64,000 nucleotides of DNA, from NCBI RefSeq assembly GCF_004363235.1, contig NZ_SNYW01000006.1, forward strand, positions 682,001 to 746,000, read 5' to 3'. The translations under genes and the position numbers were made by a program. Below the pieces are notes generated by a model. It had not been told where the DNA came from and did not search any database. It worked only from the letters and a program-made list of their open reading frames with translations. Every line of letters starts with the position of its first letter. The stretch's first letter is position 1. Below are positions 13,373 through 51,852 of this stretch, piece after piece. Source of the stretch: Dongia mobilis (GTDB lineage Bacteria > Pseudomonadota > Alphaproteobacteria > Dongiales > Dongiaceae).

Positions 13373-13568
13373 CGGGTTTCCTCGTACTGGGCAATTGCGT
13401 GGCGCATGGCGCTTCGGGAATGTCCGTTCTGGCCGTCCTCCTGTCAATCGGCCGCGGCATGCAGGAATCATCCGCAGGCCATGTGCTGGCGGCATTTGAC
13501 GCCTGCCATCACGCTCTGGGAAAGTGCCGCGCCTTCGCCCATGCCGGGCTGGCCGGATCGGGGGAAAA

Positions 13569-14495
13569 ATGGGTCGCGGTGCGGGAGTTGCCGGGCTGCT
13601 TCTGGCGGCGCTGTTCTGGGGCGGGATGATTCCGCTCAACAAGTTCCAGCTGGAGCGCTGGGATCCCTATTTCCTGATCGCCATCCGCTCCCTCGGCGCG
13701 GTGCCATTGCTCTACCTGCTCATGCTGTGGACCGACCGCGCCCGGCCGCGCCCGAGCCCCGTGCCGCAATCGAGGGTCTGGCTCTTCGGCGTGGTCGGCA
13801 ATGGCGGCTTCGCACTCCTTTATACCCTCGGGGTCAAGTTCAGCGATCCGATCCTGGCCGCCATCATCACGGCGGCGGCGCCGGCTATCGCCGCGGTGAC
13901 CGACCGCGTCTTTTTCCGCCTGCCATTCAACCACCTGATGCTGCCCGGCATCGTCGCCAGTGCCGTCGGCTGCACACTCGCCTCGATCGATGTCAGCGGC
14001 GGGCGTGTCGGCGGCATCGCCTTCGGCGGCGGTGAGTTGCTGGTGCTGGCATCGACCGTGTGCTGGGCCTGGTATTCCACCGTGGCGCAGCGCTGGTGTC
14101 CCGACTGGTCGCAGCCGCGCATCACCTTCGCCACCATGGCGACCTCTGGCGTCGCCGCCTGCCTGCTCTATGCCGTGCTGATGCTGGCGGGAGAGGTCAC
14201 GTTTCCGCCCCCGCCGCCGGCGCGCTGGGAGGAAAGCTTCAGCCTCGCCTGGTATGTCGTGACCGTGATGGTGCTGGGCGTCGTACTGTGGAATGCCGGC
14301 GTGCGTGCCGTCGGCGTGGTCACGGCCTCGCTCTATGCGAACCTCACGCCGTGCATCGCCATCCTGATCCTGGTCCTGCTGCAGGGGGCGGAACCCACCG
14401 CCCAGCAGATGCTGGGCGGTGCGCTGGTCCTTGCTGGCATCGTCTATTCCGAATGGCGCATCCTGGCCGCAAGGCGGCAGATGCGGCCGATCTGA
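13569..14495 (+). CDS. EamA/DMT-family transporter (first paralogue)
   Basis: 308 residues from ATG 13569 with GGGGGA just upstream. There are about ten hydrophobic segments in two EamA repeats; each repeat carries the paired-helix pattern seen in drug/metabolite exporters (LLLAALFWGGMIPLNKFQLERWDPYF, then GELLVLASTVCWAWYSTVAQRWC). It is closely similar in layout to the gene at 15,766-16,716, sharing WDPYF, WAWYSTVAQRWC-like and VGVVTASLYANL-like stretches. Family members export amino acids, polyamines or other small metabolites. It ends three bases before the agmatinase-family gene on the opposite strand. Confidence 0.85.
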   Translation: MGRGAGVAGLLLAALFWGGMIPLNKFQLERWDPYFLIAIRSLGAVPLLYLLMLWTDRARPRPSPVPQSRVWLFGVVGNGGFALLYTLGVKFSDPILAAIITAAAPAIAAVTDRVFFRLPFNHLMLPGIVASAVGCTLASIDVSGGRVGGIAFGGGELLVLASTVCWAWYSTVAQRWCPDWSQPRITFATMATSGVAACLLYAVLMLAGEVTFPPPPPARWEESFSLAWYVVTVMVLGVVLWNAGVRAVGVVTASLYANLTPCIAILILVLLQGAEPTAQQMLGGALVLAGIVYSEWRILAARRQMRPI

Positions 14496-14498
14496 ACC

Positions 14499-15488
14499 TC
14501 AGCCGCGCCGGAACTTGCCGGACGCCTTGCGTTTGGCCAGCAGGCAGATGAGGTCGCAGGCGATATGCGCGGCGGCCAACGCCGTGATCTGGCTCTGGTC
14601 GAAGGGCGGCGCCACCTCGACCACATCCATGCCGACGAGGTCCAATTCGGTGAAGCCGCGCACGATCTCGAAGGCCTGGGCGCTCGACAATCCACCTGAC
14701 ACAGGCGTGCCCGTCCCGGGCGCGAAGGCGGGATCGAGGCAGTCGATGTCAAAGGTGAAATAGGCCGGGCGGTCGCCGACGATCCGGTTCACTTCGCTGA
14801 TCGCCGCCTGCGGCCCGTGGCTGTGGACCCATTGCGCATCCAGGATGTTGATGCCCATGAAATCGTCATTCCAGGTGCGGATGCCGATCTGCACGGAATG
14901 CTTGGGATCGATCAGCCCCTCTTTCACCGCCTTGTAGAACATGGTGCCGTGGTTGAGCGAATCCGGCGTATCGTCCGCCCAGGTATCACAATGCGCGTCG
15001 AAATGGATGAGCGACAGCGGCTTGCCGAATTTTTCGACATGGGCTTTCAGCAGCGGATAGGTGATGTAGTGGTCGCCGCCGAAGGTCAGCATGCGCGCGC
15101 CTGATTTCAGGATGTGCCGCGCATGATCGACAATCGCGTCGTGGATCGTCATCGGATTGTGCGGATCGAGGTAACAGTCACCAAAATCGATCACCGCCAG
15201 GCTTTCGAACGGATCGAAGCCCCAGGGATAGGGCTTCAGCGAGGCCACTTCGGCCGAGGCGAGGCGGATGCCCTGCGGACCGAGGCGGGCGCCAGGCCGG
15301 TGCGTGGTGGCAAGATCCAGCGGCACGCCGCTGATTGCCAGGTCGGCGCCGGAAAGGTCCTTGCTGTAGTTGCGCCGCATGAAGGAGAGCACGCCGGCAA
15401 AGGTCGGCTCGAGGGCGAGGCCATAGGGTGATTTTCGGGCAATGGCGCCGTCGATCTTGATGTCGTCGTCGTGCTGGCTGCTGGACAT
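14499..15488 (-). CDS. Agmatinase/arginase-family ureohydrolase
   Basis: 329 residues. The manganese ligands are all present: His140 in GGDHYITY, Asp164/His166/Asp168 in DAHCDTW, and Asp247/Asp249 in DIDCLDPAFAPGTGTP. The family removes urea from agmatine, guanidinobutyrate, arginine or related guanidino compounds. The PGTGTPVSGG ending of the last motif favours agmatinase-like over arginase. A GGAAG sequence precedes the ATG at 15488. About 200 bases of leader contain four inverted repeats (listed separately). It is flanked by two EamA exporter paralogues, which suggests a polyamine or guanidino-compound role. Confidence 0.9.
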   Translation of the reverse strand: MSSSQHDDDIKIDGAIARKSPYGLALEPTFAGVLSFMRRNYSKDLSGADLAISGVPLDLATTHRPGARLGPQGIRLASAEVASLKPYPWGFDPFESLAVIDFGDCYLDPHNPMTIHDAIVDHARHILKSGARMLTFGGDHYITYPLLKAHVEKFGKPLSLIHFDAHCDTWADDTPDSLNHGTMFYKAVKEGLIDPKHSVQIGIRTWNDDFMGINILDAQWVHSHGPQAAISEVNRIVGDRPAYFTFDIDCLDPAFAPGTGTPVSGGLSSAQAFEIVRGFTELDLVGMDVVEVAPPFDQSQITALAAAHIACDLICLLAKRKASGKFRRG

Positions 15489-15525
15489 GCTTTCTTCCGT
15501 TCCTGGGCTGCTGGCCTGGGTCTCC

Positions 15526-15548
15526 CGCTTGTCGAACTTCGTCAAGCG
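15526..15548. promoter_or_regulatory. 23-bp near-perfect palindrome in the ureohydrolase leader
   Basis: The arms CGCTTG and CAAGCG flank an inner CGAA/TTCG pair around a single central base, with one mismatched pair over 11-bp arms. It begins 38 bases upstream of the ureohydrolase ATG. Its symmetry suits a dimeric repressor operator; as RNA it could also fold into a hairpin near the ribosome binding site. Confidence 0.5.
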
Positions 15549-15575
15549 GTTGATGGCTATGTGTTGTCTGATGTT

Positions 15576-15590
15576 CGGGGCTCTCCCCCG
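15576..15590 (-). repeat. Leader hairpin repeat, copy 1
   Basis: On the minus strand this reads CGGGGGAGAGCCCCG, a 5-bp GC stem closing a GAGAG loop. It is identical over 15 bases to a second copy exactly 50 bases upstream (15,626-15,640), and both copies are preceded by GACCA two bases before the stem. It lies 88 bases upstream of the ureohydrolase start codon. Confidence 0.65.
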
Positions 15591-15625
15591 GATGGTCGTT
15601 TCTGATCGTGGAATTCTGCATCCGA

Positions 15626-15640
15626 CGGGGCTCTCCCCCG
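15626..15640 (-). repeat. Leader hairpin repeat, copy 2
   Basis: Same 15-base hairpin as at 15,576-15,590, again preceded on the minus strand by GACCA. It is followed upstream by a longer hairpin (15,653-15,683). The spacing of exactly 50 bases and the conserved flank argue for a duplicated RNA or protein-binding element rather than chance. Confidence 0.65.
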
Positions 15641-15652
15641 CCTGGTCTTGTT

Positions 15653-15683
15653 GTCGCGTCCCGCTTTCCAGGCCGGACGCGAC
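15653..15683 (-). promoter_or_regulatory. Distal hairpin in ureohydrolase leader
   Basis: GTCGCGTCC at 15,653-15,661 pairs perfectly with GGACGCGAC at 15,675-15,683, a 9-bp stem with a 13-base loop. It is the first of the folded elements in the leader read toward the ureohydrolase gene. It could equally lie in the leader of the plus-strand EamA gene that starts at 15,766. Confidence 0.5.
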
Positions 15684-15765
15684 CTTGACGAAAATAGAAA
15701 AGCCCGCGCAGAGTGTCGAGCCATAGTTTTGTGGCAGCGCTTTCCTCAACACTTTCTCGCGTATC

Positions 15766-16716
15766 ATGACCAAATGGATCGGCTATGGCGGGCTGGTGCT
15801 TCTGGCCCTGCTCTGGGGCACGATGGTGCCGTCGGTCGCGCATCTGTTGCTGGTCTGGGATCCCTATTTCCTTGCCGCCTTCCGCTATATCGGCGCCGTC
15901 CCGCTGATGTGGCTGGCCTTGAAGATGGTCGAGCGGCGGGTGCCGCCGGCGGCAGCTGAAGCGAGGGCATCCGCCACCGGCTGGCGCATCTGGCTGCTGG
16001 GCTTTCTCGGCATTGCCTTCTATGCCACCGCCTTCACCGTCGGCATCCGCTATTGCCATCCGGTCACGGCCGCGATCCTCAGCGCTGCCAGTCCGGTGGT
16101 GGCGGTGCTGGTCGACCGCTTTGTCTTCCGCATCCCGGTCGATCCGCGCATGCTGCCGGCGATCGTGCTGGCGATTCTCGGCGGCTGCCTCGCCACGGTG
16201 CATTTCGACGGTGGCGCCATGTTCGATTTCCGCGGCGGCGAACTCTTGATCATCGCCGCCATCGCCAGCTGGTCCTGGTATTCGACCGCGGCACAACGCT
16301 GGTGCCGGGGCTGGGGCCAGTTGCGCATCACCACGGTAACGATGACCACCGGCAGCGTCGGCCTGGGCTGTGTCTACCTGGTTGCCGTACTGATCGGCGC
16401 GGCGCCGTTTCCGCCGGCGCTTTCGGCCGAACCGCTGGACTGGGCGATCCTGGCCTGGGTCACGGCCGTACTCGTCGCCTTCGGCGTCTATCTGTGGAAT
16501 TTCGGCGTCAAGCGTACCGGTGTCGTGGTGGCCAGCCTCTACCTCAACCTGGTGCCGATCGTGGCGATCGGCATCTTCGCCCTTTCCGGCACGGTGCCGA
16601 GCTGGCCGCAGGTCATCGGCGGTATCCTGGTGATCCTTGGCGTGGCATTGTCGGAATGGGCGCTGCTGAAGGCGCGCAAACAGGACCCGGCCCTGCGCGC
16701 GGCACGGTCGACCTGA
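15766..16716 (+). CDS. EamA/DMT-family transporter (second paralogue)
   Basis: 316 residues with about ten membrane helices in two EamA repeats (LALLWGTMVPSVAHLLLVWDPYF; later LLIIAAIASWSWYSTAAQRWC). Shared motifs with the gene at 13,569-14,495 indicate a duplication. A cupin gene follows after 16 bases, so both may be one transcript. The substrate is not predictable from sequence; the adjacent ureohydrolase suggests amines or guanidino compounds. Confidence 0.85.
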   Translation: MTKWIGYGGLVLLALLWGTMVPSVAHLLLVWDPYFLAAFRYIGAVPLMWLALKMVERRVPPAAAEARASATGWRIWLLGFLGIAFYATAFTVGIRYCHPVTAAILSAASPVVAVLVDRFVFRIPVDPRMLPAIVLAILGGCLATVHFDGGAMFDFRGGELLIIAAIASWSWYSTAAQRWCRGWGQLRITTVTMTTGSVGLGCVYLVAVLIGAAPFPPALSAEPLDWAILAWVTAVLVAFGVYLWNFGVKRTGVVVASLYLNLVPIVAIGIFALSGTVPSWPQVIGGILVILGVALSEWALLKARKQDPALRAARST

Positions 16717-51454: not shown

Positions 51455-51852
51455 CGAATTCAGGCGCTTGTGTGTCGCGCGGGCGCGTTGCCGCGCGGCC
51501 AAGAAAAAAGGGCCGTACCGAACGGCACGGCCCAAGTTCTGGGAGGAAACGCCCATGAGGGGCGCCTTGCGACGACGCCTGTCAGGGGAGAAATGCGCCG
51601 TCGCAAGGCAAAGATGGCTCTTGTGCGGTGCGATGTCAAGCAATTATCCGCTGGTTATTAAAGCGTCATCATGCTGAAAAAACTAGCAAAAATGCTGTTG
51701 CTGCTATGCAACACTATTTGCTTGGTAGGGTTTACTTTTCCCAAGCTCTGCCGAGCGCCCGCAACGGCCACGGAGCACCGGGAGCAGTCCCTGTTGGCCT
51801 ACCCGCGGGGCCAGATTGACCGGCCTTCCATCCCCTCGCTAACGTCCTCTGC
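51455..51852. other. Structured 398-base intergenic region
   Basis: No convincing gene. It contains a 7-bp hairpin at 51,510-51,533 (GGGCCGT/ACGGCCC) with an A-run on its left, which on the minus strand reads as a hairpin plus U-tract. A short GGGAGGAAACGCCC fold follows at 51,541-51,554. A strong 11-bp stem pairs 51,564-51,574 with 51,599-51,609 around a 24-base loop. An AT-rich stretch follows at 51,640-51,760. A small RNA or attenuator is possible. Confidence 0.5.
51510..51533 (-). terminator. Rho-independent-type terminator oriented to the minus strand
   Basis: GGGCCGT and ACGGCCC form a 7-bp stem; the minus-strand reading continues into six consecutive Ts. Its orientation is opposite to the genes on both sides, so it would stop transcription coming from the right. 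Confidence 0.5.

Follow-up and report, generated by a model that had tools for sequence, protein, structure and literature searches.

Evidence for a conserved tandem-hairpin leader RNA upstream of agmatinase in Dongia

Introduction

What might two identical hairpins, placed in tandem before a single metabolic gene, be doing there? The question is raised by a stretch of the Dongia mobilis genome (contig NZ_SNYW01000006.1, positions 682,001–746,000; these 64,000 nucleotides are 'the window' below). An earlier note on this DNA had described two identical copies of a hairpin 50 bases apart, each preceded by GACCA, in the leader of a ureohydrolase gene, together with a 9-bp hairpin further upstream, and had proposed a duplicated aptamer or protein-binding element outside the known classes.

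Results

The repeat is as described. The 15-mer CGGGGGAGAGCCCCG occurs twice on the minus strand of the window (15626–15640 and 15576–15590), exactly 50 bases apart, with GACCA two bases 5' of both copies (GACCA-GG- and GACCA-TC-), and the 9-bp hairpin is indeed found further upstream (Table 1). The whole genome of 4,187,288 bases contains the 15-mer twice, both times here, and a reversed-pattern control gave no match. A covariance model of the element returned two places in this genome at E ≤ 1 (with 150 of 2746 first-look candidates scored), both at the agmatinase leader. Approximate matches to CGGGGGAGAGCCCCG (up to three mismatches) numbered four in the window, two of them beyond the exact copies, against an average of 9.2 in shuffled sequence; since approximate matches are not above shuffles, it is the exact pair that stands out.

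The ureohydrolase is, by family, an agmatinase (SpeB), and it matches a solved agmatinase structure (4dz4) at E 4.1e-162. The element interval lies on its strand (minus). An EutQ-like protein and two EamA-family transporters, of which one is divergent and the other convergent, are encoded beside it. Arginine decarboxylase (TIGR01273) gave matches in all seven Dongia genomes, over the cut-off in none. The window also holds, at 51495–51570 on the minus strand, a match to the suhB/mmgR small RNA family (Rfam, 57.1 bits).

A single promoter-like site was found within 15450–15800, on the minus strand and just upstream of the hairpins, and six Dongia leaders share its TCGACA hexamer, its 17-base spacing and a second hexamer of the TA...T type. 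A transcript initiated from this predicted promoter would start near 15684, which would place the hairpins in a leader of about 200 nt that reaches to the ATG at 15488. Within the same 15450–15800 interval there is no terminator-like site on the minus strand, the single such site being on the opposite strand, and among frames of at least six codons no leader peptide common to the six leaders was seen. A 241-nt stretch of the leader folds better than shuffled sequence (z −2.61; 3 of 200 shuffles equally good), and all six Dongia leaders fold better than when their upstream part is shuffled (z −2.7 to −5.1).

Table 1. Coordinates of the element, its surroundings and the canonical guanidine-II RNAs of Dongia (window positions unless a genome and contig are given)
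Feature	Position	Strand	Remark
Copy 1, GACC box and hairpin, loop GAGAG	15624–15647	−	covariance model 32.5 bits
Copy 2, GACC box and hairpin, loop GAGAG	15574–15597	−	covariance model 32.0 bits
Probable degenerate third copy, GACA..GCGGGAGACCC..	15514–15533	−	assigned from position and core letters; missed by the covariance model
Hairpin CCGCTTG...CAAGCGG, overlapping the degenerate copy	15525–15549	−	not seen in the other five aligned leaders
Upstream hairpin, close to the leader's 5' end, GTCGCGTCC...GGGACGCGAC	15653–15683	−	9 bp, plus 2 in the computed fold
Promoter-like sequence TCGACA-17-TATTTT	15691–15719	−	9 of 12 consensus letters
Ribosome-binding region CCCAGGAACGGA	15496–15507	−	CCCAGGAA kept in six of six leaders
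Agmatinase (SpeB) gene, presumed regulated	14499–15488	−	NF002564 (PRK02190), 462.3 bits, cut-off 302
Divergent EamA-family transporter	15766–16716	+	
Convergent EamA-family transporter	13524–14495	+	
Guanidine-II RNA (L103)	G000:C3:209310–209359	−	this genome, over cut-off
Guanidine-II RNA (L104)	G004:C1:35203–35247	+	one other Dongia, over cut-off

The earlier placement of the element in the ureohydrolase leader was correct, but the interval given for it misses the probable degenerate copy (15514–15533), which occupies the place of the Shine-Dalgarno-proximal copy in the other five Dongia leaders. The last copy has its inner CCC ending 15 nt ahead of the AGGA of the ribosome-binding box CCCAGGAA in five of the six leaders; in D. 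mobilis the corresponding distance, from the last intact copy to AGGA, is 73 nt, with the probable degenerate copy between. The ribosome-proximal copy in D. mobilis seems to have decayed and to have been overlaid by another hairpin (15514–15549, minus strand), and this region may be a natural case of copy loss.

The element is present upstream of agmatinase in six of the seven Dongia genomes, with two copies in D. mobilis and three, two, two, two and two in the others, and these five others have the same neighbourhood (EutQ-like, EamA, agmatinase, EamA). In the seventh (G005, L102) the agmatinase is 76% identical, carries no copy of the element and stands in a different neighbourhood, where the EamA and other tested window genes are not nearby. 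The expectation, set beforehand, that orthologous leaders would keep the repeats was therefore borne out in six of seven Dongia genomes and failed in G005 and in those more distant agmatinase homologues whose upstream regions were compared, which have no repeats.

Searches beyond the genus led to the same locus. None of ten non-Dongia genomes of the family contains the tandem pattern. A single-hairpin model (R1), run at E ≤ 1 on the 17 genomes of the family (the order-level set is the same 17 genomes), gave 13 matches of at least 30.6 bits, all at this locus in the six Dongia genomes, and six others of at most 20.6 bits (four in element-bearing Dongia genomes, one in G005 and one, of 20.6 bits, in another genus) that we take as chance after inspection of their letters. 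Two Dongia genomes also have a longer hairpin, CCATCGGGGG...CCCCCGATGG, at model matches of about 20 bits (L086 and L087; G004:C15:33012 and G003:C13:67403), which is probably unrelated to the element.

In the contigs of a wider set of genomes, from which records of the D. mobilis genome or very near ones may be missing, the tandem pattern occurred in 31 stretches, four of them Dongia agmatinase leaders (L046, L048, L057 and L069); the other 27 resemble, by eye, CRISPR arrays (among them ones from Frankia and Salinispora), simple tandem repeats, repeats in coding sequence or chance matches. A tandem model (R2), applied with stricter filters to 385 genomes of the class, gave four Dongia hits at E ≤ 1.3e-12 and three weak matches. 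The weak match at E 3.9e-4 was rejected as lying on an apparent tRNA gene (by eye) with its first hairpin unaligned, and those at E 0.033 and 0.054 were rejected for broken pairs. Viral contigs gave no instance. Among the genomes searched, then, the element was found in the genus Dongia only and at agmatinase only. A search for the motif upstream of ureohydrolase and EamA genes had been suggested; the element was found before agmatinase, on the agmatinase strand, and before no other gene.

Alignment of the 13 copies (10 distinct) gives a consensus of GACC, 1–2 nt, a 6-bp stem with GGG/CCC beside the loop, and a five-base loop RAGAN. None of the 10 distinct copies departs from GACC, GGG, the loop AGA or CCC, and the linkers drift. 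At the fifth loop position C, G and U all occur, and the three outer pairs vary (C-G, U-A, G-C, A-U, G-U or U-G), with one C-A mismatch.

In the single-copy alignment 98.3% of 60 cells are paired (87.0% when shuffled), 11 cells are changed on both sides (4.2 when shuffled) and the covariation score is 0.511 (at most 0.215 after slides of 1–3 columns); none of 500 shuffles reached any of these values. The number of pairs with a double change (three) and the number of further pair types (six) were not above shuffles, 308 and 336 of 500, respectively, being as high. In the tandem alignment of seven rows, 100% of 84 cells are paired, the covariation score is 0.373 (0.195 shuffled, at most 0.159 slid) and five pairs have double changes, which 5 of 500 shuffles reached; the count of further pair types (eight), reached by 155 of 500 shuffles, was the one measure of five not above them. 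Compensated changes in a conserved leader, the general test for a structured cis-regulatory RNA, were thus found on most, not all, measures. The covariation comes from the outer pairs, since the three innermost G-C pairs are constant; related genomes and paralogous copies do not count as independent events, and the sequences compared are also those that supplied the structure. The compensatory stem changes looked for by the earlier note are accordingly present, with a conserved loop that widens from GAGAG to RAGAN. We regard a cis-acting RNA element under selection as well supported by these sequence comparisons.

The same evidence bears on whether the repeats might lack a function altogether. 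A chance or mobile (REP-like) repeat would agree with the short length and narrow range of the element, but we consider it very improbable, given a single locus per genome, an orthologous position in six genomes and covariation above controls on most measures.

The inverted repeats lie in a divergent intergenic region, in two copies 50 bp apart, and might instead be read in the DNA as near-palindromic transcription-factor sites, located either 3' of the agmatinase promoter or 5' of the divergent EamA gene; the C-A mismatch, in one of 60 cells, would be G-U on the other strand. We nevertheless find such operators quite unlikely. The spacings between copies (46, 50, 52 and 56 nt among the six leaders) keep no constant helical phase, the arms change together as C-G, U-A, G-C and A-U, with G-U in three cells on the agmatinase strand, and the conserved GACC and RAGAN loop are strand-asymmetric.

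A further reading takes the hairpins as targets of base-pairing small RNAs, whose C/U-rich loops would pair with GGGGGAGA, or as mRNA-stability hairpins. Alphaproteobacterial small RNAs with C/U-rich loops exist, GGGRAGA recurs in every copy, and a small RNA of the suhB/mmgR type is present in the same window; the G's sit in the stem, however, and GACC is left unexplained, and we hold this reading to be rather unlikely.

Two pairings within the leader were considered and rejected. Sequestration of the Shine-Dalgarno sequence was not supported by the accessibility of AGGA, which was not significantly below that in upstream-part shuffles in any of the six leaders (35, 35, 44, 41, 14 and 95 of 100 shuffles at or below the observed value). 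RNAalifold, applied to the five closer leaders, does propose such a fold, in which a second CCYAGG box, ahead of the last GACC, pairs with the GG of the ribosome-binding box; this pairing has no compensated change, and single-sequence models pick different partners. Pairing of the GACC of the first copy with a 5' GGTC is predicted in three leaders (probabilities of about 0.98, 1.0 and 0.69). In four of the six leaders, those three included, the GGTC overlaps the second promoter hexamer and so would not be transcribed from that promoter, and we therefore rejected this pairing as the reason for the conservation of GACC.

Discussion

The best reading of the whole, to which we give a probability of roughly 0.7 on the strength of these alignments and predictions, is a repeated hairpin operator governing agmatinase expression. 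The leader of the agmatinase mRNA would contain a cis-acting regulatory RNA, made of two to three copies of GACC, a 6-bp hairpin and a RAGAN loop, and the copies would serve as putative repeated binding sites for a trans-acting factor that sets agmatinase expression after transcription start. Control is probably exerted at translation initiation, because CCC stands 15 nt before AGGA in five of the six species and no same-strand terminator-like site was found. We infer the transcription of the leader from the predicted promoter, the regulation and its level, and the existence of a binding partner. Restriction to a single genus and a single gene, the covariation measures that do not exceed shuffles and the shuffle-like accessibility of AGGA weigh against this reading.

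An invariant 5' box and loop, combined with variable linkers and copy number, give the copies the look of multiple sites at which a trans-acting factor would bind, and the variation in copy number and in spacing (46–56 nt) would suit independent binding sites. The partner may be an RNA-binding protein, for which agmatinase itself or some other Dongia protein is a candidate; to a protein we give somewhat less than even odds. A small molecule (agmatine, putrescine or another polyamine) is possible at somewhat lower odds, the remainder going to other partners; in our judgement the protein is slightly ahead. Of the two roles first proposed for the element, the protein-binding site is no worse a fit than the metabolite-sensing aptamer. 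A literature search on agmatinase leader autoregulation returned, among the matches listed, no paper naming agmatinase.

The element is a compact, repeated RNA module of 23–24 nt that stands before a single metabolic gene and varies naturally in copy number (two or three, with one copy that seems to have decayed). Present in a genus with true guanidine-II RNAs in two of seven genomes, it offers a clean test between dual-hairpin layouts arising repeatedly for guanidino or polyamine sensing and a lineage-specific protein operator.

Comparison with known RNA systems

At gathering scores no Rfam family matched the leader; at E ≤ 10 the single match was to DUF3800-XI, at chance level (11.1 bits, with a gathering score of 37.8; E 4.7). 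Together with the compensated stem changes in orthologous leaders, this supports the proposal that a duplicated RNA element of no known class is present.

CsrA/RsmA sites, too, are hairpins with GGA that recur ahead of a ribosome-binding site. CsrA (PF02599) had no match in this genome, in a search whose control matched in 3 of 14 genomes, and conserved 6-bp stems and GACC are, to our knowledge, not CsrA features.

ANTAR-target RNAs likewise have two hairpins with conserved loop bases, and an actinobacterial agmatinase mRNA is among their predicted members, as a different RNA, in the part of PMC8164766 that concerns us. The loops given there are hexanucleotides with A1 and G4, with linkers of 2–25 nt, whereas the Dongia loop is a five-base RAGAN. 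A search for the ANTAR domain gave no match in this genome, with the control search silent in 14 of 14 genomes.

The spermidine riboswitch, a SAM-I variant, resembles the Dongia element in its association with speB and other polyamine genes; unlike it, that RNA is described in the relevant part of PMC10853860 as a SAM-I-type aptamer acting on a terminator. The SAM families of Rfam had no match at this leader.

Guanidine-II (mini-ykkC, RF01068) shares with the element two similar short G+C-rich hairpins in tandem, joined by a variable linker, a position in the leader of a guanidino-metabolism gene, and inner stem G's set against C's. The loops differ, being RAGAN in all 13 copies (10 distinct) and an ACGR tetraloop in both hairpins of guanidine-II, and the Dongia element has a constant GACC before each hairpin and up to three copies. 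RF01068 had no match at this locus at the gathering score or at E ≤ 10, nor at E ≤ 1 in the seven Dongia genomes (150 candidates scored per genome). Canonical guanidine-II RNAs do occur over the cut-off, at other loci, in two of the seven, D. mobilis included (39.4 and 32.7 bits; Table 1). The loops of both are ACGA or ACGG, and the gene that follows, probably one for an SMR-type exporter, begins MSWI(I/L)LA.

These likenesses raise the possibility, which we hold tentatively, of a new small-molecule riboswitch in which the hairpins, joined by loop–loop pairing like those of guanidine-II, would recognise agmatine or a polyamine and thereby control agmatinase. Tandem G+C-rich hairpins before a gene with a guanidino substrate would fit it, and we count in its favour a crystal structure, reported in the pertinent part of PMC5486947, in which guanidine-II hairpins accept agmatine in their pocket, and the association elsewhere of spermidine riboswitches, of different architecture, with speB (PMC10853860, in the same part). 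Against it, the element lacks both an ACGR loop and the constant C that cross-loop C-G pairs would require, RF01068 is without a match here although at another locus of this genome it exceeds the cut-off, and the distribution is very narrow. In its fullest form, as a new class of tandem-hairpin riboswitch of guanidine-II-like build, with GACC boxes and RAGAN loops, that senses agmatine (or a polyamine) for agmatinase in Dongia, we consider the idea doubtful. The titles and abstract openings of the papers listed on agmatinase and riboswitches mention no agmatine riboswitch and no such element, and a search on Dongia and riboswitches, with subscription papers mostly and preprints wholly outside its scope, found no paper.

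Set beside these systems, the Dongia element is a tandem-hairpin leader RNA, and the comparisons support it as a conserved RNA element.
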